Virus record (IMG/VR): IMGVR_UViG_3300035698_033352
Span: 1-43,148 of that record
From: a virus
DNA: 43,148 bases
Strand: one strand, 5' to 3'
Shown here: in pieces, positions 6,283 through 42,911 of the stretch
Position numbering within the stretch: position 1 is the first letter of the stretch
Layout: every line of letters starts with the position of its first letter
Notes under the pieces: generated by a model
Seen by the model: only the letters and a program-made list of their open reading frames with translations
The model's database searches: none
What the model was told of the DNA's origin: nothing
Program-made: the position numbers and the translations under genes

Positions 6283-6285
6283 TAA

Positions 6286-8198: not shown

Positions 8199-8261
8199 CT
8201 TGATGTACAAAGCCAAGCAAACCAAAGACAATACAAGTAACATAAGGACGTCAAAGTAGAC

Positions 8262-11038: not shown

Positions 11039-11472
11039 TGCTGACTTGGATACTCATAGGTGTCAACGTATTGTTGTTTGTAGCTCTTGCATTTGCAGTT
11101 CACTATTTGTGGAAGTTCGCTAAAATTATCATGGTGTTTGAAGACGACATCAATGACACTTTAAATGCGCTTGGTGCAGTAGAAACCGCTATTGTTGGAG
11201 TTTTGCAAATGCAATTGTTTTTCGATAGCCCAGAAGTCAAGAAAGCAGTTTTAAACGTACTAGAAGAGGTAAAGCTTTGCAGAGGAGTTATAAACCAAAC
11301 CATTGGTAGGTTTACAGCAAGAAGTAAGCAAAAATACGTTCTAATAAGAGAGGACGACTCTTTTGAACAGCAGGAAATACCGAGACTTCCTGGCCAACCA
11401 CCTGGAACACCCAATCCACTTGAGATGCTCCAATCCGAAGGGACGTTGATCGATGTCCGACACCAAAGATAG
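11038..11472 (+). CDS. Small membrane-anchored protein of unknown function
   Basis: A 144-residue protein with one clear transmembrane helix at residues 3-27 (WILIGVNVLLFVALAFAVHY). A helical soluble part follows (EDDINDTLNALGAVETAIVG, then a second amphipathic helix), and the end is Pro-rich and acidic. With no signal-peptidase motif it is probably anchored in the inner membrane with the rest in the cytoplasm. I do not recognise the family. Its ATG overlaps the stop of the transferase upstream, and it overlaps the late sigma gene by 20 bases, so it links the glycan operon to the late-transcription gene. Confidence 0.8.
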   Translation: MLTWILIGVNVLLFVALAFAVHYLWKFAKIIMVFEDDINDTLNALGAVETAIVGVLQMQLFFDSPEVKKAVLNVLEEVKLCRGVINQTIGRFTARSKQKYVLIREDDSFEQQEIPRLPGQPPGTPNPLEMLQSEGTLIDVRHQR

Positions 11473-28024: not shown

Positions 28025-28035
28025 GTTAGGTTACC

Positions 28036-28509
28036 TTAAATAATGTAGAGTTCCAGTTCCATGTTTTTGTCATTGATATTGAGTCGTGGAACTGCGTAGG
28101 AAAGAAAAATACGGACTCGGCCCGTGAACTGGTTTTCTTCCAAATCTGGAAAGCTTTCGAATCCCAAGGGAGTGACAAAAGGAATCCACTTGGTGATTGC
28201 CGTATTGATTCGAACCATTGCCTCAGTGTCAAAATCGTCTTTGTTGCTGTATTCGGTAAGCAAGGGACGTAAATTGGCCCCAAAATTGTAAAGAGCAATT
28301 CGCTCTCCCCAATTGGTAAGAAGAAGGTTGCGAAGGTTGTCTTCGATTTGATCTGCGATGTTATCATGGGTTTGAAACATGCTGGAACCGCCCACAAGTT
28401 CAAGAGGGGTTTTAATACCAATTGGCAATCGTGAGCGATTTGCAATGAGCGGGTTATTACGAATAACCTCGTTTCTTACGCCAACATCCTTGAAGCTTCT
28501 TCTAATCAT
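28036..28509 (-). CDS. 25: Baseplate wedge protein, gp25-like
   Basis: A 157-residue protein of the GPW/gp25 family, which clamps gp6 and seeds the sheath. The family hallmark is present: IADQIEDNLRNLLLTNWGER followed by LYNFGANLRPLLTE, with the conserved G-E-R and F-G-x-x-L. The C-terminal strands (FTGRVRIFLSYAVP and the last residues) form the handshake with sheath subunits in known structures. The length is close to T4 gp25 (132), with a longer N-terminus. It precedes the gp6-like gene on the same strand. Confidence 0.9.
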   Translation of the reverse strand: MIRRSFKDVGVRNEVIRNNPLIANRSRLPIGIKTPLELVGGSSMFQTHDNIADQIEDNLRNLLLTNWGERIALYNFGANLRPLLTEYSNKDDFDTEAMVRINTAITKWIPFVTPLGFESFPDLEENQFTGRVRIFLSYAVPRLNINDKNMELELYII

Positions 28510-28542
28510 CAGAGGTAAGTATTAGCCAGGGACAATACGTGT

Positions 28543-28872
28543 TTACAAAGAGGCTATTCCAGTTACTAATTCAAGAGCTTCAACACGATTCCTGACATCC
28601 ACCACAACACCTTCAAGTGTTTTGATTTTTTCAAGAAGCTCACTAATAACCGTATCGGTGATTGCCCTAGCACGCTCCCTGGCTTCAGTTTCTCCTCCTA
28701 AAGTTGTAATATCCGTACGCTCCGATTCCGAAACCTCAGAACCTTCTGATGAATTTGCTGTCCGAGCCTCAGCAATCTTTCTTTCAACGGAATCATTGAT
28801 TGTGGAAGTTGATTCAAGCCAGGCTTGTTCGAGCAAGCCAATTAATCTTTCTTTTTCATTTGGTGAGGGCAT
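28543..28872 (-). CDS. Small coiled-coil protein of unknown function
   Basis: A 109-residue acidic protein, helical throughout, with a heptad-like C-terminal half (ITDTVISELLEKIKTLEGVV then VRNRVEALEL). It sits between the central-spike-like gene and the gp25-like gene in the virion block and is probably a small baseplate or chaperone component. No membrane segment or catalytic motif. The ATG has no strong ribosome-binding site. Confidence 0.65.
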   Translation of the reverse strand: MPSPNEKERLIGLLEQAWLESTSTINDSVERKIAEARTANSSEGSEVSESERTDITTLGGETEARERARAITDTVISELLEKIKTLEGVVVDVRNRVEALELVTGIASL

Positions 28873-28927
28873 ATTTTCTCCATGTATCCAATTATTTTTC
28901 TGGCAAAACCAGGTTGGCTAACCTCAA

Positions 28928-30679
28928 TTATTCCCCGAAGATCTTTTCACTGGCCGCAGCCTCTACTGAACTATCAGTGTTGCTTTTGCCGTCCGAGTGT
29001 GCCTGGGTTGCTTCTTGGGAATTTTGTTGTAGGTCAACTTGCAGTTGAGTTCCTAGCAACCCTATATTTACAGCAATTGCCGATAGCGCAGCGATTGGAC
29101 TATAAGGTATGGCAATCGCCCCCGCAAACGCCGACTGCAATAGTGTCGTGAGTTGATCAAACTTTTCATGCGTCTTTGTGTCCTGCGCCACAAGCGCATC
29201 TTTTAGTGCTTCAATCTCCGTCTGTAGGTGATCAACTGTGTCTCTGAACTTGGACCACCTGATATATGGCTCACCACCAGGTGTTGGGTCACCACCAGCT
29301 CCTGCTACTTCTGCCAGGCCTCTGCCGAGAACAATCTTGGGTCCGTCAATATGTACGCCTTCTTTGGACATATAGATTACATCTAAATCTGTCTCGGCAG
29401 CTCCTTCACGGAGCAAAAGAATAGTTCCTTCAATTTCGTTGTCAGTGTCTTTGCGGGCGATCATCCTAAGATGGTCAGCCTTCTGAACCACATAACTCTT
29501 ATTGAGAGTCCCTTGTTCACCTGCCCTAGGTTGTACCAACTCATTTAAGTTGTCCCCTGCTGGCAGGGTGTTCTCAGTGTATTCAATCTCTGTAAGGCCG
29601 TAGTTCACGTCCACCTCTGATTGCATCGTGACATATATCCTGGCAGCATCACGCACAAGGTCTGGGTCGCCCTCAACAAGATTGTCTGAAAGTTGGTTAG
29701 TGCCTGGCACCCTAAGGTAGCGAGCCTTGTCTGTTTCATTTACATTTCGGGTGTTGCCCACCACCCAAGGCGCTGTATTACCTTCGAAAGCGTCGCCTGG
29801 GTCTACGTTGGGTTCTGGCAAGATTCTCCCACGTCCCACGACAATGTCTATTGAGCCTGCTTGCCCAGATGCATCTGGGTTTTCTTCTGCTCGAACGCCA
29901 AGTACGTCTCCTTTTCTGTCCTCTCCGAGGCAGATAAGTGTGTTGTTGGCACCTTGAAACACTAGCTCCTGTGGTCGTTTACGCCAACGAGGAACTGATT
30001 CAAAGGTTTGGAGAGGTATAGCATCCGCATCCCCACCCTTGTGACTAGTTGCGTTTAGGAGTATTCTGTCGTAGGCATTATCAGTTGAACCACTTTGAGC
30101 TAACACAAATGTTGATGGTGTGTTGGCACCATTAGGGAAACCAGGGTCAGGTTGGTCTACTTTGCGAGCCTGGCGTTCTTCGGAGGAAAAGTTGCTTGGG
30201 TTTCTTGAGGGCAGCAAAATCCTATCTTGATGTGTGTAGTTGACATCTTCTACGGTCCTTGTTGAACTTGTACGAGTCATCCAATAACCGACTTGTTGCC
30301 CGCCATACGAATAATCCTCATAGATCACTTCGACGCTTTCGCCAGCTTGAATTGGCAATTGAAAGTGTGAGGAGAAGAATGGGAATAGTATGGTGTTGGT
30401 TCTCGCAGCTCGACCACCCTCGTTGCTAACAATGCGAGCGACAATTGAGTTAACAGGCATAATGTCAGCCCACCTTGGGTTATTGACGACTCCTTTTATC
30501 TGCTCAATTTGCTCGACCGTCAGGATGTTTGGATCCATGATAACATCAACGACGATCGCTCTTTGGAGAGTTGGCGCAGCAGCTTGTGTTTGCGCACCTT
30601 GTATTGCACCACCAATACGATTGGCGGCTGAGCCGCCAACGATACTTCTGGTTGCTGGTGATCCTGTTCTTCTTGCCAT
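28928..30679 (-). CDS. Virion protein with a gp5-like OB-fold N-terminus (baseplate hub candidate)
   Basis: A 583-residue protein. Residues about 70-150 (PVNSIVARIVSNEGG, ILFPFFSSHFQLPIQAGESV, GQQVGYWMTRTSS, VEDVNYTHQDRILL) resemble the OB-fold region of hub and spike proteins in T4-type phages, in which a phrase such as P-F-F-x-x-H-x-x-L-P-x-x-x-G-E-x-V leads into G-Y-W-M. The middle is beta-rich with GRGRILPEPN and similar loops; the C-terminus has a helix and a short acidic tail. It is the second gene of the minus-strand block, read next before the coiled-coil and gp25-like genes. No lysozyme domain is apparent. Confidence 0.7.
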   Translation of the reverse strand: MARRTGSPATRSIVGGSAANRIGGAIQGAQTQAAAPTLQRAIVVDVIMDPNILTVEQIEQIKGVVNNPRWADIMPVNSIVARIVSNEGGRAARTNTILFPFFSSHFQLPIQAGESVEVIYEDYSYGGQQVGYWMTRTSSTRTVEDVNYTHQDRILLPSRNPSNFSSEERQARKVDQPDPGFPNGANTPSTFVLAQSGSTDNAYDRILLNATSHKGGDADAIPLQTFESVPRWRKRPQELVFQGANNTLICLGEDRKGDVLGVRAEENPDASGQAGSIDIVVGRGRILPEPNVDPGDAFEGNTAPWVVGNTRNVNETDKARYLRVPGTNQLSDNLVEGDPDLVRDAARIYVTMQSEVDVNYGLTEIEYTENTLPAGDNLNELVQPRAGEQGTLNKSYVVQKADHLRMIARKDTDNEIEGTILLLREGAAETDLDVIYMSKEGVHIDGPKIVLGRGLAEVAGAGGDPTPGGEPYIRWSKFRDTVDHLQTEIEALKDALVAQDTKTHEKFDQLTTLLQSAFAGAIAIPYSPIAALSAIAVNIGLLGTQLQVDLQQNSQEATQAHSDGKSNTDSSVEAAASEKIFGE

Positions 30680-30760
30680 AGGTGTAGGTATATACTAGAC
30701 AAGATTACAAGAAATTGGCTATGAGATTATAGACTAAGGTAACTTTCATTTCTGTAAATG

Positions 30761-31321
30761 TTAGTCGTCCAATAAAGCTAGAAGTTCTGGTGAGAAAGCT
30801 TCGGCCAGCTCACTGTCATTCCAAATGCTCCGCATGAGTTCAACATCTTGATCCTCGTGCCAGAGCTGATTGGCTGCCATATAAGTCTCATCGCCCTGCC
30901 CAGGAATCCAGGGTTCAAAATCTTCAGGCATCCTAGTCCAATCGCCAAATATATTGAAAGCAGGGTGTAAAGGAATTTTAAGTTGGTCGCTTTCACTTAC
31001 TGGGATTGAACCATCCAGCAATTTGATAGCTTCAGATGGAGACACGACTTCAACATTTCTAATTGGTAGTTTTTCCACGTGCCACATCACCTCTTCAGGG
31101 AATGCAACATCTGGAAGAAGAGCTGTTTCAAATATTACAGCAGCGGAACGGACTTTGGCCCTGCCCATTGAGGACTGTTGAACTCCTGGAACATGTTTTG
31201 CCCCTTCGGCAACGGCAAATACAGAACCAGCTGGGCCATAGCTCGATTGCCACAATTCTTGTGACTCCTGAATGGCCATAGCATCCTTCTGATTGGTAAA
31301 GTGGATATATCGTCTACTCAT
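30761..31321 (-). CDS. Small ADP-ribosyltransferase-like protein (tentative)
   Basis: A 186-residue protein that starts SRRYIHFTNQKDAMAIQESQ, resembling the first strand and helix of ADP-ribosyltransferase-type folds (an aromatic-x-H-x-T motif followed by an amphipathic helix). GPAGSVFAVAEGAKHVPG follows, then a hydrophobic strand VRSAAVIFETALLP and PEEVMWHVEKLPI. The C-terminal third is acidic. The three-position active site cannot be fixed by eye. Its start lies 35 bases from the start of the divergent plus-strand gene. An alternative is a structural role only. Confidence 0.6.
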   Translation of the reverse strand: MSRRYIHFTNQKDAMAIQESQELWQSSYGPAGSVFAVAEGAKHVPGVQQSSMGRAKVRSAAVIFETALLPDVAFPEEVMWHVEKLPIRNVEVVSPSEAIKLLDGSIPVSESDQLKIPLHPAFNIFGDWTRMPEDFEPWIPGQGDETYMAANQLWHEDQDVELMRSIWNDSELAEAFSPELLALLDD

Positions 31322-31356
31322 TGGTTGTTTCTCGCCTGTTGTTGATAATTACCGAC

Positions 31357-31887
31357 ATGGCGACAGATAATCCAAAAACCCCTGAAGAAGAACTAGGCGA
31401 ACTACTTGAAGACGAATTTGCTGCTGGGCTTGAAGAAAATGCAGAGAATTACGAGTACGTGCCTCAGTCATTTAACCCGCAAGTCCCTGAATGGAAGTTT
31501 GAGGCACCAGACATTAAAGATTTGGATACACGAACAAATCGCCAGCTGCTTGACTTTAGCGCCCTGCTTGATACGCTTTCTTCACTCGAAGAAAAGAAGA
31601 AACTTCTCTGGCGTCAGATCTATGAGAACGCTGTAAGCGACCGCAAGAATGCCTATATTTTATTTGGCGATCTCTATAAAGATGTTCACAACAAACCAAA
31701 TGAGCATGCCATTATGGGACCTATCCTTTCAAAATACATGGAGCGACTAGAGAAATCCAATGCACAGCTCATTAAGCTTGCAGAGATGATTGATGAAGTC
31801 GCTGAGACCGAAGAAGAATGGATGACTGATGAAGACGCCATGTATAAACGCATCCTGGATAACAAAGACAAAGAAGGTAAAAAATGA
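31357..31887 (+). CDS. Candidate small terminase subunit (gp16-like) or other helical DNA-packaging protein
   Basis: A 176-residue, acidic, mainly helical protein. Residues about 65-145 form two long helices (SALLDTLSSLEEKKKLLWRQ, NAVSDRKNAYILFGDLYKDV, then NEHAIMGPILSKYMERLEKS and AQLIKLAEMIDEV). This pattern resembles small terminase proteins of marine T4-like phages, but I am working from memory of the family. ATG 31357 is preferred over an upstream TTG at 31321, which would overlap the divergent gene. It overlaps the next gene by ATGA. The large terminase is not in this window. Confidence 0.5.
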   Translation: MATDNPKTPEEELGELLEDEFAAGLEENAENYEYVPQSFNPQVPEWKFEAPDIKDLDTRTNRQLLDFSALLDTLSSLEEKKKLLWRQIYENAVSDRKNAYILFGDLYKDVHNKPNEHAIMGPILSKYMERLEKSNAQLIKLAEMIDEVAETEEEWMTDEDAMYKRILDNKDKEGKK

Positions 31888-33944
31888 CTGACAGTGCTTT
31901 AAGGCTTCTTATTGAGCGTGAAGTCGAAGAGGCTATTAGTCTGCTTGGGGAGGGGATCGTACACCTGGATAAACTCAAGTGGCATGACATGCTCGACTTC
32001 CTCAAGGCTTGGAATCTCGACAAGGCTAAATTTCACGTGACAGAAAAAATGGATGGAGTCGCCATGATACTTGGAGTTGAGAATGGCAAGTTCTACATGC
32101 GTAGCAAGAACATGGTCTTTCACTCGTTGGAAGACATTTCTGATGCCTCGTTCCTGTCTGATTTCAAATCCTACTTCGACAAACTCCAAAGTGTCCCCTG
32201 GGATAGCATTGTCACAAAACTGGCAGCCAAACATGGTTTCGAGTATGACGGAAACTTGGAAATCGAAGGCGAAGCCATTCCCTCTTGGGACCATAACATC
32301 GTCATGTATGATGAGGCTAAGATCGGCGACGGAATTTTTGTTATCTTCAACACCAAGACAGGTTTGGGCAAGAAGGACAAAACAGGACGGCTAACGCTCC
32401 CAGAGATGTGGAAAGACCTCGCAGAGGAAGCGAACAAGTACAGTACGATCAAGTTCTTCCAGGTCCCTGAGATGGATATCTCAGGGTTGGAGTTTGACAA
32501 CGACATTGTTGTATCCCTTGAAGACCTGGTAGAGAAGCACGGAAATTTCCTGAGAAAGCCAGCTCGTACGCCCGCAGCGAAAGAACTTAAAGCCAAGCTC
32601 TTGCAACGGGTTAAAGAGATCGGTCTCCAGGCAAAAAACCAAGCCCTTGGACATGATGTCTCAGGCAAATTTGGCAAAGACGTAGAAGGTGTTGTCATTT
32701 CTGGACCAGACGGAAAGCTTATCAAAATTGTAGACACCGAAAAGTTTACTGAGGTTGGTCAAAGAAATTGGCATTATCTGGGCAGGATTTTTGATTCCGA
32801 AAACAGATTCAGGAAAGCGCTCAAGGCTGACCCAGATTCATGGGATGTCGGTCTAGAGCAGCACCAAGACGAAGTGGATGAAGTCGAACGTGAGTTCGAA
32901 GAGAACGGCCACGAGATGGTTACCATTAAAAGGAAGCAACGGGAAACACGAGAGCGAATTGATTACCAGAAAGCTCTAATAGCAAAACTGCGTCGCCTGG
33001 CTGAGGAAATGCCACTGGACGAGGTCATCGAGCTTTTTGTCGACAAGAAGATTGTTCCAGAGGGTGTAGTCAGGAAAGACCTTAGAGCAGCACTCAATGA
33101 GTCTGCTATCCAAGAAGGTGGAAACGTATTTGATGGTATGAACTCCGTGGTGCCCAAGCCTTTATTGGAGCCTAGCATCAGTAATGCATTGAGCCTAGCT
33201 GGCTTTGATGGCCTAGAATACGAAATCGTTGGCAATAAAAGCAAAAAGTTCTTCAATGATATCGACATAGCAGTGAGTCTAGACAAGTTGGCTGACTATT
33301 TGGGCATGTCCGAGCTAACAGATATACATGAGTTTTGGAGCGTGCTTGATGGCCACCTAGCAAACTCGACTGTCGAAAGCTTTTCTATCATAAAAGGCTT
33401 GAAGCAGTTTCACCTCCTGGCACCGTTGGTTGATTCCTCAGGCGAGCAGATGAATGCTTTCACCGCCGAAGGCGATCGTACAGATGAACCAGGCATGATC
33501 CAGATCGATGTCTTCGTTGGCAACCTCAACTGGATGAAAGACATCAACTCGGGTGCCCCTGAATCAAGTAAAAAGAAGGCTGTTTGGCGAAATTTGCTTT
33601 ACTACGCCATTGCCACCGTCGTTCGCTGGAAAGAACCAGGAGACCCAGATGATGTTTGGAACAGATACATCATGGATTTCCGTAGCGGATTAAAGAAAAG
33701 AAAGTTCCAAATCATTCCACCAAGCGGTCGCCGCAAAAAAGACAAGAAGGTAACACTAGAGGATGAAATCGTAACCACTAGTCCTGATGGACTTGTGCAA
33801 GAGTTCTTTGGTCCTGGTATTACTTGGTCGGATGTAAACTCATATGAGGCGCTGATCAAGATGATCAACTCCAGCAGGTTTAGATTTAAAGAAGACAGGC
33901 CAGAGATTTTAGCAGCCTTCAAAAAGAAGATGAACAATGACTAG
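31884..33944 (+). CDS. Polynucleotide ligase fused to a pol-beta-type nucleotidyltransferase
   Basis: A 686-residue two-domain protein. Residues about 45-300 have the covalent nucleotidyltransferase motifs: motif I TEKMDGVA (Lys55-x-Asp57-Gly58), LEIEGEAIPSWD (125-136), DVEGVVI (266-272) and motif V KLIKIVD (278-284, Lys281). Residues about 430-600 look like the DNA polymerase beta nucleotidyltransferase fold: GNKSKKFFNDIDIAV (450-464, Asp459 and Asp461), then a third carboxylate in MIQIDVFVG (Asp542). The two are joined by a charged helical linker. The N-terminus (LRLLIEREVEEAISLLGE to residue 23) matches the putative capsid-targeting pattern of nearby genes, and another L-N-E lies in the linker (404-406). 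Likely role: sealing or repairing nucleic acid ends. Confidence 0.8.
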   Translation: MTDSALRLLIEREVEEAISLLGEGIVHLDKLKWHDMLDFLKAWNLDKAKFHVTEKMDGVAMILGVENGKFYMRSKNMVFHSLEDISDASFLSDFKSYFDKLQSVPWDSIVTKLAAKHGFEYDGNLEIEGEAIPSWDHNIVMYDEAKIGDGIFVIFNTKTGLGKKDKTGRLTLPEMWKDLAEEANKYSTIKFFQVPEMDISGLEFDNDIVVSLEDLVEKHGNFLRKPARTPAAKELKAKLLQRVKEIGLQAKNQALGHDVSGKFGKDVEGVVISGPDGKLIKIVDTEKFTEVGQRNWHYLGRIFDSENRFRKALKADPDSWDVGLEQHQDEVDEVEREFEENGHEMVTIKRKQRETRERIDYQKALIAKLRRLAEEMPLDEVIELFVDKKIVPEGVVRKDLRAALNESAIQEGGNVFDGMNSVVPKPLLEPSISNALSLAGFDGLEYEIVGNKSKKFFNDIDIAVSLDKLADYLGMSELTDIHEFWSVLDGHLANSTVESFSIIKGLKQFHLLAPLVDSSGEQMNAFTAEGDRTDEPGMIQIDVFVGNLNWMKDINSGAPESSKKKAVWRNLLYYAIATVVRWKEPGDPDDVWNRYIMDFRSGLKKRKFQIIPPSGRRKKDKKVTLEDEIVTTSPDGLVQEFFGPGITWSDVNSYEALIKMINSSRFRFKEDRPEILAAFKKKMNND

Positions 33945-34206
33945 GTTTTCCAAGGAACGCTGGAGAAGATTAGCTGGACTCTTGAATGAGGGCAGTCTGG
34001 GAGTCCCAAGTTTGATCGATGCAGATAAACTGCCAAACATTGGACCGCCTGAAGGCCCACAACAAGATGTCATGCCCAAGAAACAAATCCTTGAAGAACT
34101 AACAGCAGTGCTTGCAGAAGTTTTAAGTGAGACGGCTGATGAAGCTTGGTATGCTGGAGCCGAGTATCTCGCTGATGCGCTTAGGGTCCGTATCGAAGAA
34201 CTTTAG
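33937..34206 (+). CDS. Small protein with KERWxxLAGIL-type N-terminal segment
   Basis: An 89-residue protein beginning MTRFSKERWRRLAGLLNEG. The first 18 residues are nearly the same as in three proteins encoded on the minus strand at 39417-41054, while the rest differs. L-N-E at 16-18 would fit a prohead-protease site. The C-terminal half is an acidic helix (EELTAVLAEVLSETADEA). It overlaps the ligase gene by eight bases and converges with the next gene, overlapping it by four. Function unknown; a capsid-targeted internal protein is the inference. Confidence 0.75.
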   Translation: MTRFSKERWRRLAGLLNEGSLGVPSLIDADKLPNIGPPEGPQQDVMPKKQILEELTAVLAEVLSETADEAWYAGAEYLADALRVRIEEL

Positions 34207-34385
34207 TCGAGGTCGATCCCAGCGAGAGCTTCTTCTATGAGAGCCATAATCATTTCTTGAAGCTCCTCTTCGCCACTCACATCTTCATCATCCATGAGCA
34301 GTAGTTTCTTTTTGCCGCCGACATCAACTGTCTTCTTGTTGGCGTCTTTGTATTCTTCGGTTTGTTCTTTATCTCGGTCTACCAT
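34203..34385 (-). CDS. Small acidic protein of unknown function
   Basis: A 60-residue, strongly charged protein with a lysine patch (GGKKKLLLMDDED) and an acidic amphipathic C-terminus (EEELQEMIMALIEEALAGID). It is the last gene of a short minus-strand run; its ATG overlaps the stop of the preceding gene by one base (TAATG), which suggests coupling. It overlaps the convergent plus-strand gene by four bases. No domain recognised. Confidence 0.65.
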   Translation of the reverse strand: MVDRDKEQTEEYKDANKKTVDVGGKKKLLLMDDEDVSGEEELQEMIMALIEEALAGIDLD

Positions 34386-34786
34386 TAGTTGGCCTGGTCC
34401 TTTCGGAGGTAATCAAGTACTGCCTGCAACTTCTCAGGGTCTGTGCTAGCTTGATCAATTTCATAGTACACTTGTTTCTTTAAATTTTGCAACTTCTTGG
34501 ATTGCTCAAGCTTTTTGCGATTGGCAGCCCCAACCTTACCCTTAGGTAAAGTCTTGTCCGATCCAAAGTCCTCACCAGTACCTGCTTGTTTTTCAGCTGC
34601 CTTTTGTGCGGCAGTCTTTTTAGCTTTTTCTGCATTGGACTGAAAAGTCTGTGTGCTTGTCTTCCCAGCGAAGCCCGCCAGGCCTTTTGGTGTATTTTGT
34701 GAGCCCCACACAGGTGCCTGTTCGCTTAGTTGCTCACGGACAGCCTTGCGAATCATCTCTTTGAGTTGTTTGCTTGTTATTTTCAT
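34385..34786 (-). CDS. Small basic protein with putative capsid-targeting N-terminus
   Basis: A 133-residue Lys/Ala/Gln-rich protein. It starts MKITSKQLKEMIRKAVREQL then SEQ, an amphipathic basic helix ending in L-S-E (20-22), like the targeting segment of internal head proteins. The middle is low-complexity and basic (NAEKAKKTAAQKAAEKQAG), as in DNA-bound internal proteins, and the end is a short helix (PEKLQAVLDYLRKDQ). The neighbours with similar starts support the same class. Function inferred only. Confidence 0.7.
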   Translation of the reverse strand: MKITSKQLKEMIRKAVREQLSEQAPVWGSQNTPKGLAGFAGKTSTQTFQSNAEKAKKTAAQKAAEKQAGTGEDFGSDKTLPKGKVGAANRKKLEQSKKLQNLKKQVYYEIDQASTDPEKLQAVLDYLRKDQAN

Positions 34787-34797
34787 ATTGTTACCTA

Positions 34798-35508
34798 CTA
34801 TGAGTAGTGCTTTCTTAATACATCGGGAGTGATCCCGTAGTCGATCAAAACTGGTATTTGTTTCCCACCTCGACTGACCACACCCCAGGAACTCGGCCGA
34901 CCCATATCCCCAGCTGACATGTCGTGGTTAGCAATCATCCCCATGATGTCATTGAACATTTCACTTTCGTAGACTTGCTCAAGAATTTCTTTGCTTACGT
35001 TTGGTTCTATGCTAGGGTGAGTTCGTCCACCCCTAAGACGTTTCCGAATTTGAAATGTGAGAACGTCATACCAGTCAAAGAAGCTAATCTGGATACCAGT
35101 TAACTTTGGCCATAAGCTTGTTTTTTTGAGCCGCTCAGCTCTCTCCATTTCAAGCCATGTGCTATCGTCGTCGAAGTCGTAAACTTTAGCGATGTGCTCA
35201 TAGCCAATTTTTCCAGCATCTATCTCAACGTCGTTTTGTGCTACGCCTTTTTCATTGAGCGCTACCTTAAGAACCGTGTCACCATCGACAGGAAACACGA
35301 TTCGTGCTGAACCTTTGCCAAGTTTTTTACCGAAGTGTCGTTGGAGGTAGCGAGTTTTTCCAGCCATACCACGATAGCCTTTTAACTCCTCGAATGAGAA
35401 GGATTCTGGGTATTCAGCTTCATCGAGCCAGATTTCATTAAGCGAAGCTCTAGACGCTTCCTCCAGAGCTTCTTTGACTAAATTGTTGATAATTGATTGC
35501 AGTTTCAT
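34798..35508 (-). CDS. Protein-kinase-like protein with putative capsid-targeting N-terminus
   Basis: A 236-residue protein. Residues 62-70 (KLGKGSARI) look like a glycine-rich loop, Lys81 in TVLKVAL like the ATP-binding lysine, WLEMERAE (118-125) like the hinge, and IANHDMSAGDMGRPSSWGVV (192-211) with VLIDYG (220-225) like the catalytic loop and the D-F/Y-G metal site. The spacing is short, so it is a minimal or divergent kinase fold. The N-terminus (MKLQSIINNLVKEALEEASR then ASLNE) ends in L-N-E at 23-25. The ATG at 35508 overlaps the upstream stop (ATGA) and is preferred over a longer frame from 35535. Activity is unproven. Confidence 0.7.
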   Translation of the reverse strand: MKLQSIINNLVKEALEEASRASLNEIWLDEAEYPESFSFEELKGYRGMAGKTRYLQRHFGKKLGKGSARIVFPVDGDTVLKVALNEKGVAQNDVEIDAGKIGYEHIAKVYDFDDDSTWLEMERAERLKKTSLWPKLTGIQISFFDWYDVLTFQIRKRLRGGRTHPSIEPNVSKEILEQVYESEMFNDIMGMIANHDMSAGDMGRPSSWGVVSRGGKQIPVLIDYGITPDVLRKHYS

Positions 35509-35933
35509 CGGTATAGTCTCTCTTCGCTTTGCCATCTATCAGCTTCAGCTGTACCCATCGCACGGACAACCAGTGTAGTGTATGCACGTGGGTCTCCCTT
35601 ACCGAGGGTTAGTTGTTCAAGCGCTGACAGCATATTTGATGCAGCTGGAAAGACCGAGTACGGTTGCACAAGTGGTCGAAGGCCTATGATGCATTCATCA
35701 GCGTGATAACCATATGGCTGTACTTCTTCGCCCTCGTAAGTCGAATCAATCTCATCCAGGAGAACCGAAGCAATGTGGTCCCACATTCCACCATTTGTGG
35801 AGCCTTCCTCTTCGACAGTAGCGTCGTCATAGGAAATTTCCGAGAGAGTCTCGGCAGCCAGAGCACGAACAAGTTGTTCCATGCTATAATGCATTGGGTC
35901 TGAGTGATGCATGCCTTTAAGTAGGCATTTCAT
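35505..35933 (-). CDS. Small protein of unknown function, possible capsid-targeting N-terminus
   Basis: A frame of up to 142 residues. The longest start is at 35933; methionines at 35912, 35894 and 35882 are alternatives. From the last (MEQLVRALAAETLSEISYDD) the protein would begin with a short amphipathic helix ending L-S-E at 13-15, like its neighbours, so 35882 may be the real start. The rest is acidic with GKGDPRAYTTLVVRAMG near the end and no known motif. It is coupled to the kinase-like gene by an ATGA overlap. Confidence 0.6.
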   Translation of the reverse strand: MKCLLKGMHHSDPMHYSMEQLVRALAAETLSEISYDDATVEEEGSTNGGMWDHIASVLLDEIDSTYEGEEVQPYGYHADECIIGLRPLVQPYSVFPAASNMLSALEQLTLGKGDPRAYTTLVVRAMGTAEADRWQSEERLYR

Positions 35934-35962
35934 AAGCTTGGCTGACAGGCCATGCGACAGAT

Positions 35963-36005
35963 TTAGAAAAACGCAATGGAATTTAGAAATGTACGCTTAG
36001 AAAAA
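35963..36005. repeat. Three TTAGAAA direct repeats in a divergent region
   Basis: TTAGAAA occurs at 35963, 35983 and 35997, spaced 20 and 14 bases, in the 122-base divergent gap between the minus-strand small-protein run and the plus-strand membrane protein/actin-like pair. A TATACT (36007-36012) follows directly, which could be a -10 box, although no good -35 is seen. Iterons upstream of an actin-like gene recall the parC site of ParM systems; that parallel is inference. Confidence 0.35.
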
Positions 36006-36015
36006 GTATACTAAC

Positions 36016-36042
36016 AAAGAAAGATGCAGTGCATCTTTCTTT
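36016..36042. promoter_or_regulatory. Perfect 13-bp inverted repeat
   Basis: AAAGAAAGATGCA (36016-36028), a single centre G, then TGCATCTTTCTTT (36030-36042), with no mismatch. It lies between the repeats and the ATG of the membrane protein at 36056. As RNA it would form a 12-bp stem with a three-base loop; as DNA it could be an operator. A GTG start at 36029 that would extend the membrane protein falls at its centre, which makes that start unlikely. Confidence 0.6.
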
Positions 36043-36055
36043 CAATAACACAGTC

Positions 36056-36385
36056 ATGCTCATACTAGAAATTGTAATTGGGATCATACTTTTTATCGTT
36101 GGTTATATCCTTGGTCGACTCAACTTACTGCAAAGAAACTTGCAAAGACCTAACGACCTACAGCGTTTAGACAAAACAGGGCGTGTATCTGAATGGAAGG
36201 TAAGCTCTGTGAAGCAACACAAACCAACAAGGACTATCAATATTGATGAGAGTAAGTTTGTTACAGATGTCAGCACAGATTCATTCACATCGAAACATAA
36301 GAGCTTAGGAAAGAAAACAGTGTCACAAGATAGTGGTATAGGAGCTTCAGTCTCTAAACTGAAGAATCTCAAGGAGAGAAAATAA
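36056..36385 (+). CDS. Membrane-anchored protein preceding the actin-like ATPase
   Basis: A 109-residue protein. Residues 1-21 form one transmembrane helix (MLILEIVIGIILFIVGYILG) followed by RLNLLQRNLQ, so the positive side suggests a cytoplasmic C-terminal tail. The tail (about 30-109) is polar, basic and Ser/Lys-rich, ending SKLKNLKERK, without a domain. It lies 25 bases before the actin-like gene, read the same way, so it could anchor or recruit the filament to the membrane; that is inference. The ATG at 36056 is chosen over GTG 36029. Confidence 0.7.
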   Translation: MLILEIVIGIILFIVGYILGRLNLLQRNLQRPNDLQRLDKTGRVSEWKVSSVKQHKPTRTINIDESKFVTDVSTDSFTSKHKSLGKKTVSQDSGIGASVSKLKNLKERK

Positions 36386-36410
36386 TGATCAAAACAAACA
36401 AGGTGACACA

Positions 36411-38531
36411 ATGACGGTTGGGTTGGACGTGGGAACGTCATTTGTAGTAAAGGCTTCTGAGGGCAAAGAAGAAGGAAGTGTGGAGTTCAAGGACTTCCGT
36501 GATGCGTTCTATGTAATCAAGCCAAGCACACCCATAGCCACCAAAATGATTGAAAAGGGCCTCAAGGACAAAATTTTTGTCAAGGATGAGGAGGATGGTT
36601 CATTCATCCTACTTGGTATGGATGCAATCGAAAAAGCTGTTGAGCGTAACGACTCCGCAAAGCGCCCAATGTACCGTGGAGTTGTCTCTGCGAAAGAGAA
36701 GCATGCCCGCAAAGTACTCTCTTATATCCTAAAAGAGGTAGTAGGCAAAGCCAAGAAGAAGAATGAGAAGCTCGTCTTCTGTATCCCAGCACAACCAATT
36801 GACCAAGAGGATGATGAGTTCGATGTAGGCTACCACGAGGATGTTGTCACAAAGATTCTACTGGAACAAGGTTATCAGGCCCGTGCAATCAATGAGGCAG
36901 AAGCTCTCTGCTATTCGGAGCTTGAAAATGATGACTATACAGGAGTTGCGCTCTCCTGCCTTGTTCCTGGCACCAAAATTTACACAAGAAAAGGAATCAC
37001 AAACATAGAAGATGTACAAAAGGGTGATGAGGTTTTTACCCACAAAGGCAGGTGGCGCCAAGTAAACAATGTAGTTACCAAACAGTTTGAAGGAGTATCT
37101 ACAAGTGTAAAATTGCAAGGGTATTCAAACGACTTCGAGGATTATAAATTTGTTGATAACCACGAACTTTATGTGAAAAGAGATAACCGCTGGCAGTGGG
37201 TTGGATGTGAAGAACTTGCAGTCGGAGAAATTGTTGGAGAGCGTATTGCGAAACGAAATCGTTTCGGCAAAGGGCAACCAGGAATAACGTTGTGTGAACG
37301 CAAAACAAATTCAAGTGATTATACCAAAACACGTGTTTCGTGTTCACCGAACGTTCAACGGCTTGTCGGGTATTTTCTAGGCGACGGGAGTGTCAATCTG
37401 TCCGAATCATGTGTGCAATTTGATTTTGGCATTGCCGAAAAAGCTAATATTCAAGATGTGCAAGAAATTCTTGCAAGGAATTTCAATAAAGCTTGTACGG
37501 TAATTCCAAAAGGCGACGGCTGTTTGCGAATTAAGTGTTATTCTAAAGGGTTAGCAAACTGGTTCTCAGGTCACCTATACAACGACAACAAAGAAAAATA
37601 TTTTCCATGGGACTTGTCCAGACTTTCGAAGTCTGAATGTGCCAATCTTTTAGCTGGTTTGGTTCGTTCAGACGGCCATTTCGAAAATGTTGGATTTCGT
37701 TTCAGTAACACCAATACACACCTCATTTGGCTTGCACGACAGCTGTGTGCTCGGCTTGGATTTGCGGCTGCAACAAATTACAGAGAACCACGACCAGGCG
37801 GTATTGTCGACGATAGACAAATTTCAGGAAAGAAACGAGAGTGGGTAGTTTCAGTTTCTGGTAAAATGAGTTCCGTTTCAATGGTTGAATATATCAAAAA
37901 TGTGACATGTGAAACTAGTAAAACGACAGAACGCATTTTCCTCGACGACGGCTTTATCTGCTCACGGGTCCAGGATATTAGACATGAGGAATATTGCGGG
38001 GCCGTTTACGACCTTCAGGTAGAAGAAGACCACTCTTTTTCTGGCCCATTTCTCACAATCCACAACTGCGGGGCAGGAATGCAAAATGTATGCGTGATGC
38101 TAAATGGTGAACCTGTTATGAAATTCAGTGTTGCAAAATCGGGTGATTGGATCGACCGAATGGCGTCTATAGCTACTGGTGAATCAGACTCGGTTGTACA
38201 GGCTGAAAAAGAACATGGAAAATTTACGGTTGGTGTTGCCAACGAAAATCCCGTACTAGATGCAGTTCAAGCTTACTATGTAAGGTTAATTGATTACGTT
38301 GTGCAAAACTTAGTTTTGCATTTTAAGGAATCAAATTCTCTTCCTAAGTTTTCAAAACCTTTGTCATTCGTGGTCGCTGGGGGCACATCGAAAGCAGATG
38401 GGTTTGTTGAAATTCTTGAGCAAAAATTGCTTGAACACGGATTCCCGTTAGAAATTTCTGAAGTCCGCCATGCTTCCGATCCATTGCATAGCGTCGCAAA
38501 AGGCTGTTTAATAGCGGCCCAGGTTTTTTGA
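36411..38531 (+). CDS. Actin-like (ParM/MreB-type) ATPase interrupted by an intein
   Basis: A 706-residue precursor. The N-terminal extein (1-182) starts TVGLDVGTSFVVKAS, the phosphate-1 loop of the actin/Hsp70 fold. EAEALCYSE near 165-173 is a family-like helix. The C-terminal extein (553-706) begins CGAGMQNVCVML, the phosphate-2 loop, and contains VVAGGTSKADGF (adenosine loop) and DPLHSVAKGCLIAAQVF. Spliced, the protein would be 336 residues, the size of a bare actin-like core. It would polymerise with ATP and might position phage DNA or machinery. A coupled frame follows immediately (see 38528). The ATG follows AAGGTG. Confidence 0.88.
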   Translation: MTVGLDVGTSFVVKASEGKEEGSVEFKDFRDAFYVIKPSTPIATKMIEKGLKDKIFVKDEEDGSFILLGMDAIEKAVERNDSAKRPMYRGVVSAKEKHARKVLSYILKEVVGKAKKKNEKLVFCIPAQPIDQEDDEFDVGYHEDVVTKILLEQGYQARAINEAEALCYSELENDDYTGVALSCLVPGTKIYTRKGITNIEDVQKGDEVFTHKGRWRQVNNVVTKQFEGVSTSVKLQGYSNDFEDYKFVDNHELYVKRDNRWQWVGCEELAVGEIVGERIAKRNRFGKGQPGITLCERKTNSSDYTKTRVSCSPNVQRLVGYFLGDGSVNLSESCVQFDFGIAEKANIQDVQEILARNFNKACTVIPKGDGCLRIKCYSKGLANWFSGHLYNDNKEKYFPWDLSRLSKSECANLLAGLVRSDGHFENVGFRFSNTNTHLIWLARQLCARLGFAAATNYREPRPGGIVDDRQISGKKREWVVSVSGKMSSVSMVEYIKNVTCETSKTTERIFLDDGFICSRVQDIRHEEYCGAVYDLQVEEDHSFSGPFLTIHNCGAGMQNVCVMLNGEPVMKFSVAKSGDWIDRMASIATGESDSVVQAEKEHGKFTVGVANENPVLDAVQAYYVRLIDYVVQNLVLHFKESNSLPKFSKPLSFVVAGGTSKADGFVEILEQKLLEHGFPLEISEVRHASDPLHSVAKGCLIAAQVF
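36957..38066 (+). mobile_element. Intein with LAGLIDADG homing endonuclease
   Basis: In-frame insertion of 370 residues (183-552 of the precursor). It starts CLVPGTKIYT (block A, Cys1), has VDNHELYVK as the likely block B with His, and ends VYDLQVEEDHSFSG, then LTIHN (blocks F and G) before the +1 Cys. LVGYFLGDGSVNLS and LLAGLVRSDGHF are the two LAGLIDADG segments of a homing endonuclease. All splicing residues are present, so it should be active. It splits the phosphate-2 loop of the actin-like protein exactly before CGAGMQN, a conserved site typical of inteins. Confidence 0.95.
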
Positions 38532-38626
38532 TTGACGCCGAAGAAGACGGGGAAGACGAACAAGTGAAAAAAATACTGCCTCAGCGTGTAACACACGGAG
38601 GCAGCAAAGGCTTTGGCTCGTTTTAA
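38528..38626 (+). CDS. Short acidic frame coupled to, or frameshifted from, the actin-like gene
   Basis: Directly after the actin-like stop (TGA 38529-38531) a 32-codon frame opens in the -1 frame: TTG 38528 overlaps the stop, and the product is acidic, then basic, ending THGGSKGFGSF. Too short for most gene finders. It could be a separate peptide started at TTG, or a C-terminal extension reached by a -1 shift on the run of six T at 38524-38529. No ribosome-binding site is visible. The plausible C-terminus supports a real product; the mode is undecided. Confidence 0.45.
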   Translation: MIDAEEDGEDEQVKKILPQRVTHGGSKGFGSF

Positions 38627-38643
38627 TTCAGCGCCGATGTGCG

Positions 38644-38898
38644 TCAATAGGCGTAGGTGCCATCGAAGTCTTCTAGCTCTTTAGCTAGGACATCTTTGGG
38701 AATATCATGCATGTCCGAAACATGGTCTAAGGAATATTCGTAATCTTCACCACGTCTGTACACCATGGAATACAAATATTTCAAAGCGTGGTATAGATCC
38801 TGTTTGTCCCAACTCGTCTCTTCTTGCTGTTCCCTGAACATAGCTCGAACTTCTTTTACTATTAAAGCTCGCAGCTCTGATTTCAATATCTTAATCAT
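38644..38898 (-). CDS. Small protein with amphipathic targeting-like N-terminus
   Basis: An 84-residue protein beginning MIKILKSELRALIVKEVRAM, with AGGGGG seven bases upstream, so this ATG is preferred over an ATG at 39021 that would add 41 residues of unclear character. The first 20 residues are a basic amphipathic helix like those of its neighbours, but the residue before the R-E at 22-23 is Phe rather than Leu/Ile. The rest is acidic and aromatic (YSMVYRRGEDYEYSLDHVSD). Function unknown. The 158 bases upstream (38899-39056) show no other gene. Confidence 0.65.
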   Translation of the reverse strand: MIKILKSELRALIVKEVRAMFREQQEETSWDKQDLYHALKYLYSMVYRRGEDYEYSLDHVSDMHDIPKDVLAKELEDFDGTYAY

Positions 38899-39056
38899 AT
38901 TTCCCCCTGTTAGACTTCCTTCTAAGTTGTAGCTGTGCTTAAATAGAAAACATGACCTTATTCTGTTTTTTGCATCCAGAAGTTTTTTCAAACCCAAAGC
39001 TTGCTCGGCTCGCTTGTCCATCTCCCTAGTATCGCTACCAAAGCGTATGCACTGGG

Positions 39057-39209
39057 CTAAAGCGTTTTAAACCCACCCGAGGATTCTGGGACTGCCATCT
39101 CTTTAAAGACATTGGCAACCACCTTCGCAATGACCGACTCCAGGAAGTGAGTATCAAAAGACTTGATACTCACACGCCTGGCAGGCTTGTATTTTACTGG
39201 TTCAATCAC
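39057..39209 (-). CDS. Small 50-residue protein (GTG start)
   Basis: A frame of 50 codons plus stop. From GTG 39209 the product begins VIEPVKYKPARRVSIKSFDT and ends VPESSGGFKTL. GTG 39218 would add three residues. The upstream DUF6356-like gene ends at 39202, so the two overlap by 8 bases (GTGATTGA). Composition (basic, with a helical VIAKVVANVFKEM) is protein-like. An 11-bp inverted repeat (39147-39173) lies inside the frame, so it is likely coding rather than a terminator. No clear ribosome-binding site. Confidence 0.5.
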   Translation of the reverse strand: MIEPVKYKPARRVSIKSFDTHFLESVIAKVVANVFKEMAVPESSGGFKTL

Positions 39210-39420
39210 GGCAATCACATTTTTTTATCAGGAAGTCTCTCGTGGACTTTGTATCAAATGGACACGGTGGGCAGATAAAGGGAAACACGGCGTGCAAAAC
39301 TAACCATATCGATGATAAAAAAAGGTGCACCGAAACACGCAGGGCGAACTTCGCATGTTGGAAGTAGGTCTCACCCTGGCTGGCTGGATGTTTATTAAAT
39401 AAGTTAGTGAGCCAACTCAT
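39202..39420 (-). CDS. DUF6356-like small membrane protein
   Basis: A 72-residue protein that begins MSWLTNLFNKHPASQGETYF. The motif H-P-A-S-x-G-E-T-Y-F and the hydrophobic helix LFLSSIWLVLHAVFPFIC that follows match DUF6356-like proteins, which are small, one-helix and common in Alphaproteobacteria as I remember the family. FDTKSTRDFL near the end fits their C-terminal part. Two cysteines lie just beyond the helix (ICPPCPF). It overlaps the upstream gene by ATGA. Its role is unknown; it may have come from a host. Confidence 0.65.
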   Translation of the reverse strand: MSWLTNLFNKHPASQGETYFQHAKFALRVSVHLFLSSIWLVLHAVFPFICPPCPFDTKSTRDFLIKKCDCRD

Positions 39421-39953
39421 CTATTGAGTTTCTCGTCCCATTCAGATTCGATGTCAGCATATTTGTCAAGTTCGTCACCGCCTTCATCTCTGGGTTCGGC
39501 TTCGTCGACGATTTCGACCTCACCTTCCCAGGGGTCAGCATCATCCCAGAATTCGTTTCCTGCTCCATCCAAAAGACGTTGGGTGGCAGCTTCAATTTCT
39601 TCTATGGACATCTCATCGTAATTCATATGACGAGGCCTTGTGCCGTAAGTCTCCTTGAAACTATCTCGATGGTCAGCGATGGCTAGGTACCTTGCAAGGT
39701 CTTCGCCCGTCTTTACACCGCTCTTATCCCAGTGTTCTGAGTCGTCTGCTAGCCTAAAGCCTGAACCAGACTTCCTAGAGTTGAGTTGTTTGGCATATTC
39801 ACTAGCTGTCTCTGGATAATCTCCAAGTTGCCTATTGAATGCCTCTTCTTCTTCCCGAGCAGGATCCATAGATTCTGGGGAAACATCTCCAAGTTTTTGT
39901 TCCTTAAGGATGCCTGCTAATTTCTGCCAGCGCTCTTTTAGAATCTTAGTCAT
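39417..39953 (-). CDS. Acidic protein with KERWQKLAGIL N-terminus
   Basis: A 178-residue protein beginning MTKILKERWQKLAGILKEQK, one of four copies of this N-terminal segment in the window. L-K-E at 16-18 is a potential prohead-protease site. After residue 25 the chain is very acidic (DPWEGEVEIVDEAEPRDEGG) and mostly disordered, with a helical EIEAATQRLLDGAGNEFW. No enzyme motif. Its ATG is two bases from the stop of the upstream 126-residue gene, so they are likely co-translated. An internal head protein is the inferred role. Confidence 0.75.
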   Translation of the reverse strand: MTKILKERWQKLAGILKEQKLGDVSPESMDPAREEEEAFNRQLGDYPETASEYAKQLNSRKSGSGFRLADDSEHWDKSGVKTGEDLARYLAIADHRDSFKETYGTRPRHMNYDEMSIEEIEAATQRLLDGAGNEFWDDADPWEGEVEIVDEAEPRDEGGDELDKYADIESEWDEKLNR

Positions 39954-39955
39954 GA

Positions 39956-40336
39956 TTAGTTGTCCTTCAAAAAATGCTTGATGTTGTCAATCAATTCAGC
40001 GCTGACTTGTTCGGAGCCTTCGCCAACCCCATGAAACGGCCCTGTCGAAGCTTCTTCAACTACCTTGTGAAGAAGATCCATAGCTTCAGAGAGATCCTCT
40101 TCGGGCAGCCGCCGCCACTCGTCTGGCAAATCGCCATAATCATCGTGTTGCTCTTTTGTTACAGTCGACGTTCCCTCAAATGGGTTTCCGCCCATGATTC
40201 CTGGGCTGACCATACCAAGATTCTGAAAGCCCTCAGAAAGTTCCGCCTTGAGTTTTTTCTTGTCGCCTTCTGCGATGTTGCTGGCATCGGTTGGAACGAT
40301 GCCAGCAAGTTTCTGCCAGCGTTCTTTATTAATCAT
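39956..40336 (-). CDS. Protein with KERWQKLAGI N-terminus
   Basis: A 126-residue protein beginning MINKERWQKLAGIVPTDASN then IAEGD. It shares the KERWQKLAGI core with its neighbours, and I-A-E at 21-23 would be the protease site. The remainder is acidic with helices (EEDLSEAMDLLHKVVEEAST, VSAELIDNIKHFLKD). No domain recognised. It is followed by the related 178-residue protein two bases downstream and preceded by another family member, so three such genes stand in a row. Confidence 0.75.
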   Translation of the reverse strand: MINKERWQKLAGIVPTDASNIAEGDKKKLKAELSEGFQNLGMVSPGIMGGNPFEGTSTVTKEQHDDYGDLPDEWRRLPEEDLSEAMDLLHKVVEEASTGPFHGVGEGSEQVSAELIDNIKHFLKDN

Positions 40337-40340
40337 TTTA

Positions 40341-41054
40341 TTACCATTTCTTGCACGACCAATATCGTGCTTTGTGCTTCGGCCCTGGATTGTCGCAGTT
40401 GTGACGAGCCCTAAATGACTTTCTGCGCTCAGGGTTGTTCTTTTTGATTCGCATATTAGGGTCGCCGAAGTTCACCTTTACGACGTTACCTTTAGGGTTC
40501 TTGACATAGACTTTGAACTTCTTGACGTCACCACGCATAGGTTTGTTTAATTCGACCTTGCGCCCTTGATACTCTGCCTCTTCGAGAGTGCTTTCTTTTG
40601 TGACTTTATTCCAAGACTCCTTGTCTGGGTAATCCGCATCGCCTGGCTTAGCTGGTTTTTCACCACGCTTGCGCTTGGCATGGATGTTATCCCAAAGACC
40701 TTTTTGTTTGCCCTCATCAAGGTCTTCTTCAACCATCTCATCTTCATACGCTTCAACGTGTGCATCCATTTGTTCTTCGACTGGGGATTCGTCCAAGAGA
40801 TAATGTGTTACCACATCAATCATTTCGGCAGCCAGGGTCAATTTACTCTGGACCCATGATTCAAGCTGGGCGTCGTCTGGCATTAGGTCAAGCAAGGTAT
40901 CAGCTTGACTAAAAATCTGTTCTAATTGGCCCTTGGCCATACGACCTTCGTCATCATCTTTTACGTCAATGCGTGACCCAACGAGACTAGGCTCTCGGTC
41001 AACGTCCTCGGTGAGGATGCCAGCAAGTTGTTGCCATCTACGTTTGTTGCTCAT
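40341..41054 (-). CDS. Protein with KRRWQQLAGIL N-terminus and basic C-terminal domain
   Basis: A 237-residue protein beginning MSNKRRWQQLAGILTEDVDR, with L-T-E at 14-16. The ATG at 41054 is chosen over 41126 because it places the shared motif at the N-terminus. The middle is acidic. Residues about 120-150 (LWDNIHAKRKRGEKPAKPGD) and the C-terminal part (VKKFKVYVKNPKGNVVKVNF, then NPERRKSFRARHNCDNPGPK) form a basic domain that I recall from structural or internal proteins of marine phages. It ends CKKW with a Cys in RHNCDN, which could bind metal. Function unknown. Confidence 0.75.
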   Translation of the reverse strand: MSNKRRWQQLAGILTEDVDREPSLVGSRIDVKDDDEGRMAKGQLEQIFSQADTLLDLMPDDAQLESWVQSKLTLAAEMIDVVTHYLLDESPVEEQMDAHVEAYEDEMVEEDLDEGKQKGLWDNIHAKRKRGEKPAKPGDADYPDKESWNKVTKESTLEEAEYQGRKVELNKPMRGDVKKFKVYVKNPKGNVVKVNFGDPNMRIKKNNPERRKSFRARHNCDNPGPKHKARYWSCKKW

Positions 41055-41894: not shown

Positions 41895-42911
41895 ATGTTG
41901 ATCAAAGTAGAATACGTCTGGCTAGACGGGACAGTTCCAAATCCGCAACTCCGAAGTAAAACAAAAGTTATTATTGGTGAAGGTGAGAGTGGGACGTTTG
42001 GACTTGAAGATGTGCCGACGTGGTCTTTTGATGGGAGTTCCACAAATCAGGCCACAGGCGACAAGTCTGACTGTTTGTTAAAACCTATTCGCCTTGTTGC
42101 AGATAGAGGACGAGGTGGTGAAGGTAACGCCTGCATCGTTCTGTGTGAAGTTTGTAATGCCGACGGCACACCACACGAGACCAACCAAAGGGCTAAGTTT
42201 ACTGATGACAAAGAAGCCTGGTTCGGTTATGAACAAGAGTACACCTTCATGGTTCCAGGAACAGACCGTCCACTCGGATTTCCAGCCTCAGGCTTTCCAG
42301 AGCCTCAGGGGCCTTACTACTGTGCAGTTGGACACAAGAACGTCACAGGGCGTGAGATCGTTGAAGAACACCTAGACGTATGCCTGCACGCAGGTTTGAG
42401 TATGACTGGAGTCAATGCTGAGGTGATGCTTGGCCAATGGGAATACCAGGTATTCGGCAAGGGGGCAAAGGTAGCAGCAGACGACTGTTGGCTTGCCCGC
42501 TATTTCCTTTTCCGTGTTGCTGAAAAACACAATCTTGAGGTTTCCTTCCACCCGAAGCCCGTCCATGGAGATTGGAACGGCTCGGGGATGCATGCCAACT
42601 TCAGCACCAAGGCAATGCGTGAGGTTGGCGGTGAAAAACTATTCACAGGGATTTGTGAGAAGTTTGGTAAAACGCATGCTGAGCACATCGCTGTTTATGG
42701 GCATGATAATGATAAGCGTCTCACGGGGCTTCATGAGACACAACATATTAATTCCTTTTCATATGGGGTATCCGACAGGGGGGCTTCAATTCGCATACCA
42801 CTCGGGGTTGCAAAGAATGGTTGGAAAGGTTACCTGGAGGACCGCCGGCCCGCTTCGAACGCCGACCCTTATATGGTGGCTGCCAAGATTCTTGAAACAC
42901 TTAAGAAGTAA
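41895..42911 (+). CDS. glnII: Glutamine synthetase type II (GSII)
   Basis: A 338-residue enzyme that would make glutamine from glutamate, ammonia and ATP. The type II hallmarks are complete: WSFDGSSTNQA (43-53), WFGYEQEYTF (109-118, metal-binding Glu), NAEVMLGQWEYQ (174-185), HPKPVHGDWNGSGMHANFST (219-238), HIAVYGHDNDKRLTGLHET (264-282), SDRGASIRIP (293-302) and LEDRRPASNADPY (314-326). GSII is the form in eukaryotes and some bacteria such as rhizobia; it lacks the adenylylation loop of bacterial GSI. The length is near normal (about 350). An AGAGG precedes the ATG. It stands alone in its transcription unit. Confidence 0.95.
   Translation: MLIKVEYVWLDGTVPNPQLRSKTKVIIGEGESGTFGLEDVPTWSFDGSSTNQATGDKSDCLLKPIRLVADRGRGGEGNACIVLCEVCNADGTPHETNQRAKFTDDKEAWFGYEQEYTFMVPGTDRPLGFPASGFPEPQGPYYCAVGHKNVTGREIVEEHLDVCLHAGLSMTGVNAEVMLGQWEYQVFGKGAKVAADDCWLARYFLFRVAEKHNLEVSFHPKPVHGDWNGSGMHANFSTKAMREVGGEKLFTGICEKFGKTHAEHIAVYGHDNDKRLTGLHETQHINSFSYGVSDRGASIRIPLGVAKNGWKGYLEDRRPASNADPYMVAAKILETLKK

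Follow-up and report, generated by a model that had tools for sequence, protein, structure and literature searches.

Putative prohead address tags resembling a scaffold tail in a fragment of a distant T4-type myovirus

The window analyzed here, i.e., the 43,148 bases of the IMG/VR virus record IMGVR_UViG_3300035698_033352 (G000), is a piece of a distant T4-type myovirus, and its genes between positions 31884 and 41054 form an island encoding proteins with short, reused N-terminal segments, most of which carry an L/I-x-E site (Table 1). Judging from sequence, these segments are most probably address tags for the prohead core that would be cut off by an S77 protease during maturation and that comprise two docking peptides, one of which (class A) resembles the C-terminal tail of the scaffold protein. 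The computed basis of this reading consists of the identity between tag and scaffold tail, the fixed spacing between tag and site, the reuse of the tags on unrelated proteins, the linkage of tagged genes to the head module, and the presence of the protease in relatives; docking, cleavage, encapsidation, and ejection are what we infer from it. T4-type baseplate wedge families (PHROGs) were found at 26177-28024 (E=3e-14) and 28036-28509, and the window wedge protein was 32-33% identical over 97% to proteins of Flavobacterium phage immuto, Microcystis phage Mel-JY01, and a 484-kb uncultured phage, and 61-77% identical to those of the IMG/VR contigs G001-G005.

Terminal tags in the window and its relatives

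The first-pass annotation had described nine proteins (named here by start position) as sharing one N-terminal segment, and all nine N-termini were present in the window sequence, as were the reported sites LGE 21-23 (31884), LNE 16-18 (33937), LSE 20-22 (34786), LNE 23-25 (35508), LSE 13-15 (35882), LKE 16-18 (39953), IAE 21-23 (40336), and LTE 14-16 (41054). L/I-x-E occurred within the first 25 residues in 8 of the 9 named proteins vs 9 of 33 other called genes (Fisher P=0.0014), and composition-preserving shuffles of the nine segments gave a mean of 4.2 (P=0.008). The DNA pattern for ERWQxLAG occurred twice in the window and never in dinucleotide shuffles. These window-only statistics are moderate, and hence relatives were needed. 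In the viral contig collection, 82 stretches matched the looser DNA pattern ERWQxLAG and none matched the strict pattern for KERWQKLAG, while a short-peptide tblastn search against cultured phages returned nothing beyond chance hits. The notion of a reused tag held up among the relatives, that of a single common segment did not: two unrelated classes, recurring on unrelated proteins in 11 (A) and 25 (B) sequence clusters, were found in addition to doubtful members.

Class A, i.e., [K/N]-x-RWQKLAG[I/V/L] usually followed immediately by L/I-x-E, comprises the four window proteins in which KERWQKLAGI-type residues had been noted before (33937, 39953, 40336, and 41054). Among the sampled relatives, the general form R/K-[WFLYM]-x-x-L-A-G occurred 94 times, and 85 of these occurrences were terminal (20 N-terminal and 65 C-terminal, with 9 in the middle), in a sample that includes the window (4 N-terminal cases) and G054 (6; found via the motif), whereas 0.45, 0.35, and 3.85 occurrences, respectively, were expected from shuffles (0.8 terminal of 4.65). 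Among the 20 N-terminal cases, L/I-x-E stood exactly one residue past LAG in 12 and at offset 0 in one more; six of the ten N-tagged proteins of relatives outside the window and G054 had the site one residue past LAG. When one protein was taken per cluster, in a sample likewise including the window and the motif-derived G054, the site lay 0-1 residues past LAG in 7/11 vs 0.42 in shuffles. The G002 homologue of the 39953 protein starts with MNFSSNRWKQLAGVLKE, followed by G, and a search among relatives for homologues of the 33937 protein beyond its tag found none. For the 40336 protein, the homologues (NRWQQLAG..LNEGFMNLGM, DRWMKLAG..LKEGFVNLGM, and KRWQKLAG..LKENLGNLGM) align their LKE-G, LKE-N, and LNE-G with LSE-G at residues 33-35, and this position, instead of the IAE at 21-23 proposed earlier, is the one common to the relatives.

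Class B, i.e., MKITxxQLKxMI...L-x-E with E near residue 22, is clear in 34786 and loose in 31884, 35508, and 38898. Overall, E was found at residue 20-23 in 21 of 33 proteins (2.9 in shuffles), and in 13/25 vs 1.9 when one protein was taken per cluster. The idea that class B is a copy of the capsid N-terminus (MKxFTLxQLAxGI) was dropped because position-specific scoring placed the capsid N-terminus no higher than about the 94th percentile when compared with untagged proteins. In the 31884 family, L21, E23, and G24 were invariant with x being G/T/T/N in the alignment and T in L004, so that L-x-E-G was present in 5/5 homologues; likewise, L23 and E25 of the 35508 protein were invariant in five homologues (x = N/Y/Y/C/Y).

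These patterns bear on a first alternative, namely that the segments are nothing more than the usual helical N-termini found in E-rich proteins, with L/I-x-E being a coincidence of composition. It would agree with the moderate window-only excess, as shuffles still reach 4.2/9, and with 35882 and 38898, but we consider it quite unlikely given that the spacing between tag and site is fixed across unrelated proteins far above shuffles, that class A is nearly identical to scaffold tails (see below), and that the 31884 and 35508 families keep L-x-E invariant while x varies.

Scaffold tail, protease, and head-gene order in relatives

Capsid and scaffold loci of relatives were gathered via the capsid protein, i.e., independently of the tag motif. 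Immediately upstream of the major capsid gene lies the gene of an acidic, gp22-like protein, and of its 59 distinct C-terminal tails, 56 have R[WFLM]xx[LM]A[GN] at their end. L/I-x-E was found at most 28 residues upstream in 52 of these 56 tails (shuffle mean 10.2) at a mostly fixed distance, with 36 at one spacing, and the residue after E was G, S, A, or N in 50/52. The scaffold of G002 ends in LNESANSQTRNDPETQSSNRWQLLAGIKK, that of immuto in ISEVSEQVSRWQKLAGIIK (RWQKLAGIIK), and that of Mel-JY01 in ILNESNNVVERMKKLAGIVK (ERMKKLAGIVK); the Rhodothermus phage RM378 scaffold has a looser end (ERIKRLAGL). In G002, G006, and G054, the motif is present on both scaffold and cargo of one phage. The gp22 tails of T4 (VYAKVASRF) and P-HM2 (AYVQQLAKRL) showed a loose likeness to class A that was not counted as evidence.

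A gp21-like protease gene was located in relatives and not within the 43-kb window: of 50 related contigs, 41, including G054 with its homologous island, had a match to PF03420 (S77) above the cut-off. Most of the nine contigs without S77 are short fragments; G002 (67 kb) and G013 (77 kb) presumably lack it owing to incompleteness. In 49 of 57 distinct sequences of the capsid protein (PHROG major head protein, E=2.6e-71 in G002), L/I-x-E comes after the conserved LLENQ, where the propeptide is expected to end, and the next residue is mostly S or A. An S77 protease, a gp22-like scaffold, and a gp23-like capsid protein were found in relatives sharing the island. One short site thus marks the capsid protein, the tail of the scaffold, and the tags on cargo alike. 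The earlier proposal of a reusable head address with a gp21-type cut is supported by this common site, by tag reuse and fixed spacing, by the distribution of S77, and by class A being the same peptide as the scaffold tail.

The gene order in relatives is terminase, portal, a gene of ~285 amino acids (aa), S77 protease, a gene of ~137 aa, two genes headed by class B (140 aa and 80-100 aa), a gene of ~165 aa, scaffold, and capsid; that of T4 is portal - 67 - 68 - 21 - 22 - 23. The conserved 140-aa gene after the protease has its class B N-terminus in L061, L070, L072, L087, L113, and others, and in many contigs it also has a [KR]WAxLAF-type C-terminus, possibly a second form of the scaffold tail. 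As a separate observation, several proteins of the 484-kb phage (L229) that are encoded at 27696-32386, close to its head genes, have very short MRLKxxLLE-type N-termini, which are similar in length to the capsid-targeting sequence (CTS) of T4. In G054, the scaffold and capsid genes occupy 188.7-193.0 kb and are followed at 194.8-205.1 kb by the tagged homologues of window proteins, the island ending at the actin-like gene that corresponds to window 36411-38531; therefore, the head genes of the window phage probably lie beyond the right edge of the window.

Two further alternatives concern what the tags bind. RWxxLAG could be a general interaction peptide that gathers proteins during infection without packaging them, with the protease, the portal, or a host factor as conceivable partners. 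In its favor, the motif also ends many proteins of the larger relatives, but the adjacent protease-type site, the motif on the scaffold, and the linkage to the head module point to the prohead, making this explanation unlikely. That the tags address another phage structure, e.g., filaments of the actin/ParM-like protein from 36411-38531, is highly improbable: the filament-like gene does lie inside the island and is kept in relatives, but scaffolds of phages throughout the group end in the motif, nothing was found to link the tags to the filament gene, and the first three homologues and G054, which keep the filament gene, keep the head module too.

If the segments are prohead address tags, the tag would dock a cargo protein into the forming prohead during head assembly, the gp21-type (S77) protease would cut past L/I-x-E and free the cargo inside the head, and the freed cargo would be ejected together with the DNA. 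Because the gp22-like scaffold ends in almost the same peptide as class A, cargo with this tag probably takes the site normally filled by the scaffold tail, be it on the shell, the core, or the portal. Class B heads small conserved genes between protease and scaffold, the region of the core genes in T4, and so would probably dock in the core. We somewhat favor a reading in which cargo is loaded by a copy of the docking tail of the scaffold, such that one peptide serves the scaffold C-terminus and the N- or C-terminus of cargo, in which class B derives from core proteins, and in which the protease removes both.

Looser members, domain exchange, and neighboring genes

Table 1 Tagged proteins and related features of the window (aa, amino acids; NTase, nucleotidyltransferase)
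Feature	Position	Strand	Protein (gene)	Segment, next residue	Remark
Island of tagged genes	31884..41054	.			G054 (206 kb) counterpart just downstream of scaffold and capsid genes
Class B-like N-terminus	31884..31952	+	686-aa ligase-NTase-like protein (31884-33944)	MTDSALRLLIEREVEEAISLLGE, then G	
Class A tag	33937..33990	+	89-aa protein (33937-34206)	MTRFSKERWRRLAGLLNE, then G	Putative cut after E18; motif and offset as in relatives
Class B tag	34721..34786	-	133-aa protein (34385-34786)	MKITSKQLKEMIRKAVREQLSE, then Q	
N-terminal segment	35434..35508	-	Kinase-like protein (34798-35508)		LNE 23-25
Doubtful member	35838..35894	-		MHYSMEQLVRALAAETLSE	Start 35894 preferred over 35882
Class B-like N-terminus	38830..38898	-	84-aa protein (38644-38898)	MIKILKSELRALIVKEVRAMFRE, then Q	
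Class A tag	39900..39953	-	178-aa protein (39417-39953)	MTKILKERWQKLAGILKE, then Q	Putative cut after E18
Class A tag	40232..40336	-	126-aa protein (39956-40336)		Site shared with relatives: LSE, then G, residues 33-35
Class A tag	41007..41054	-	237-aa protein (40341-41054)	MSNKRRWQQLAGILTE, then D	C-terminal HVA1-like domain

Several points weigh against prohead address tags. The 35508 segment is internal in four relatives, where it lies behind an N-terminal module of ~45 residues; the 38898 protein has no L/I-x-E, its sole similar site being FRE 21-23; and the 35882 site is not conserved, as its homologues, which start 12 nucleotides upstream at 35894, read LSE/MSE/LGE/FDE. Upstream of the C-terminal cargo tags in larger relatives, L/I-x-E was not enriched (14/55 vs 10.3 shuffled, P=0.125), an apparent 42/55 having dropped to 14/55 once the tag's own [VIL]xE was excluded; E-[SAG] was enriched there. 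Start sites are predictions from a simple caller and inspection, members of one sequence cluster are not independent of each other, and the window holds no scaffold, capsid, or other head gene. Finally, as a literature search found no proteomics for phages of this group, and a Flavobacterium phage paper that does not name immuto reports no proteome, presence of the tagged proteins in virions remains inferred.

The 31884 protein matched Pfam RNA_ligase below the cut-off (E=4.5e-5), and its N-terminus was predicted with low confidence to form a helix at residues 3-20. Predicted structures had a mean predicted local distance difference test score of 62 (31884) and 47 (35508), with the N-terminal part below 50, and in both models the helix ends directly before L-x-E, which is weak evidence. 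A separate 60-aa open reading frame of the window (34203-34385) matches the N-terminal module behind which four relatives have their kinase-like protein fused, an arrangement that represents a gene-order rearrangement or a split.

The first-pass annotation had called the parts downstream of the tags unrelated. The same tag does occur on unrelated proteins, but the term needs care because some tagged proteins share shuffled domains. The 38898 domain (residues 24-82, 47%, E=1e-16) forms the C-terminus of a class A-tagged G054 protein, with the match beginning exactly past FRE, at residue 24; the C-terminal domain of the 41054 protein (residues 157-235, 56%) sits behind a different N-terminus in G054, MAKQTLEEEINKLVKEEIEKNKYGRVLSEG; and a HAD-like protein has its class A tag N-terminally in L127 and C-terminally in L158. 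Proteins with C-terminal RWQKLAG in the larger relatives L158, L121, L135, L168, L173, and L164 include HAD-like, "DGHHRW," and P-loop kinase-like ones, several of which also have a class B N-terminus.

The actin/ParM-like gene at 36411-38531 contains an intein-like insert (approximately residues 183-538), on both sides of which the G002 and G003 homologues, themselves without the insert, align. A glutamine synthetase gene (41895-42911; Pfam Gln-synt_C, E=1e-18) adjoins the tagged island, and genes for nucleotide-sugar epimerases, methyltransferases, and glycosyltransferases form a long cluster at 172-12316. A 4.8-kb contig (L012/L033, IMGVR_UViG_3300022845_000357) matched parts of the window at 99-100% identity by translated match and is probably the same phage from another sample.

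Comparison with known systems

The internal proteins of T4 have a CTS whose first ten residues suffice for packaging and which is cut by gp21 after L/I-x-E (PMC9026906). The tags resemble the CTS of IPI/IPII/IPIII and Alt in being short N-terminal peptides on otherwise unrelated proteins that end at L/I-x-E, and in their association, here in relatives, with a gp21-type S77 protease and a T4-type capsid protein. However, T4 IPII and IPIII start with MKTYQEFIAE followed by A, and the window tags are unlike this sequence and longer; the tags come in two classes, not one; class A, the same peptide as the C-terminal end of the scaffold, is used in relatives at C-termini as well; and packaging is a prediction here. 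The tags are hence best filed as working like the T4 CTS while falling outside its family by sequence.

In phage P1, an N-terminal capsid signal of DarB, sufficient within 30 residues, sends proteins into the myovirus head; the Dar N-termini have no reported consensus, nor is a separate scaffold described (PMC9024508). An N-terminal address to a myovirus head would be common to both, but a clear shared sequence, also present on the scaffold, distinguishes the tags described here. Head proteins of SPN3US and phiKZ are cut past E by a gp21-related protease, giant-phage propeptides being mostly >100 residues long and a gp22 counterpart being unconfirmed (PMC5694885). These propeptides share the type of cut predicted for the tags and are far longer. 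Encapsulins load unrelated enzymes into an HK97-fold shell via a short terminal peptide, which by description is similar, but they involve neither maturation cleavage nor a scaffold.

A literature search that was short on subscription journals turned up no description of a cargo tag that equals the scaffold tail, which is therefore a weak negative. To our knowledge, the binding partner of the T4 capsid-targeting peptide is not settled, and the use of the scaffold's own tail as a cargo tag would offer, for this group, a specific and testable answer as to what a targeting peptide binds. Tests are possible because the cultured relatives immuto and Mel-JY01 carry the same scaffold tail. The tags suggest a second peptide set with which proteins could be loaded into phage heads, and they would allow lists of probably injected proteins to be read from the sequences of uncultured phages.

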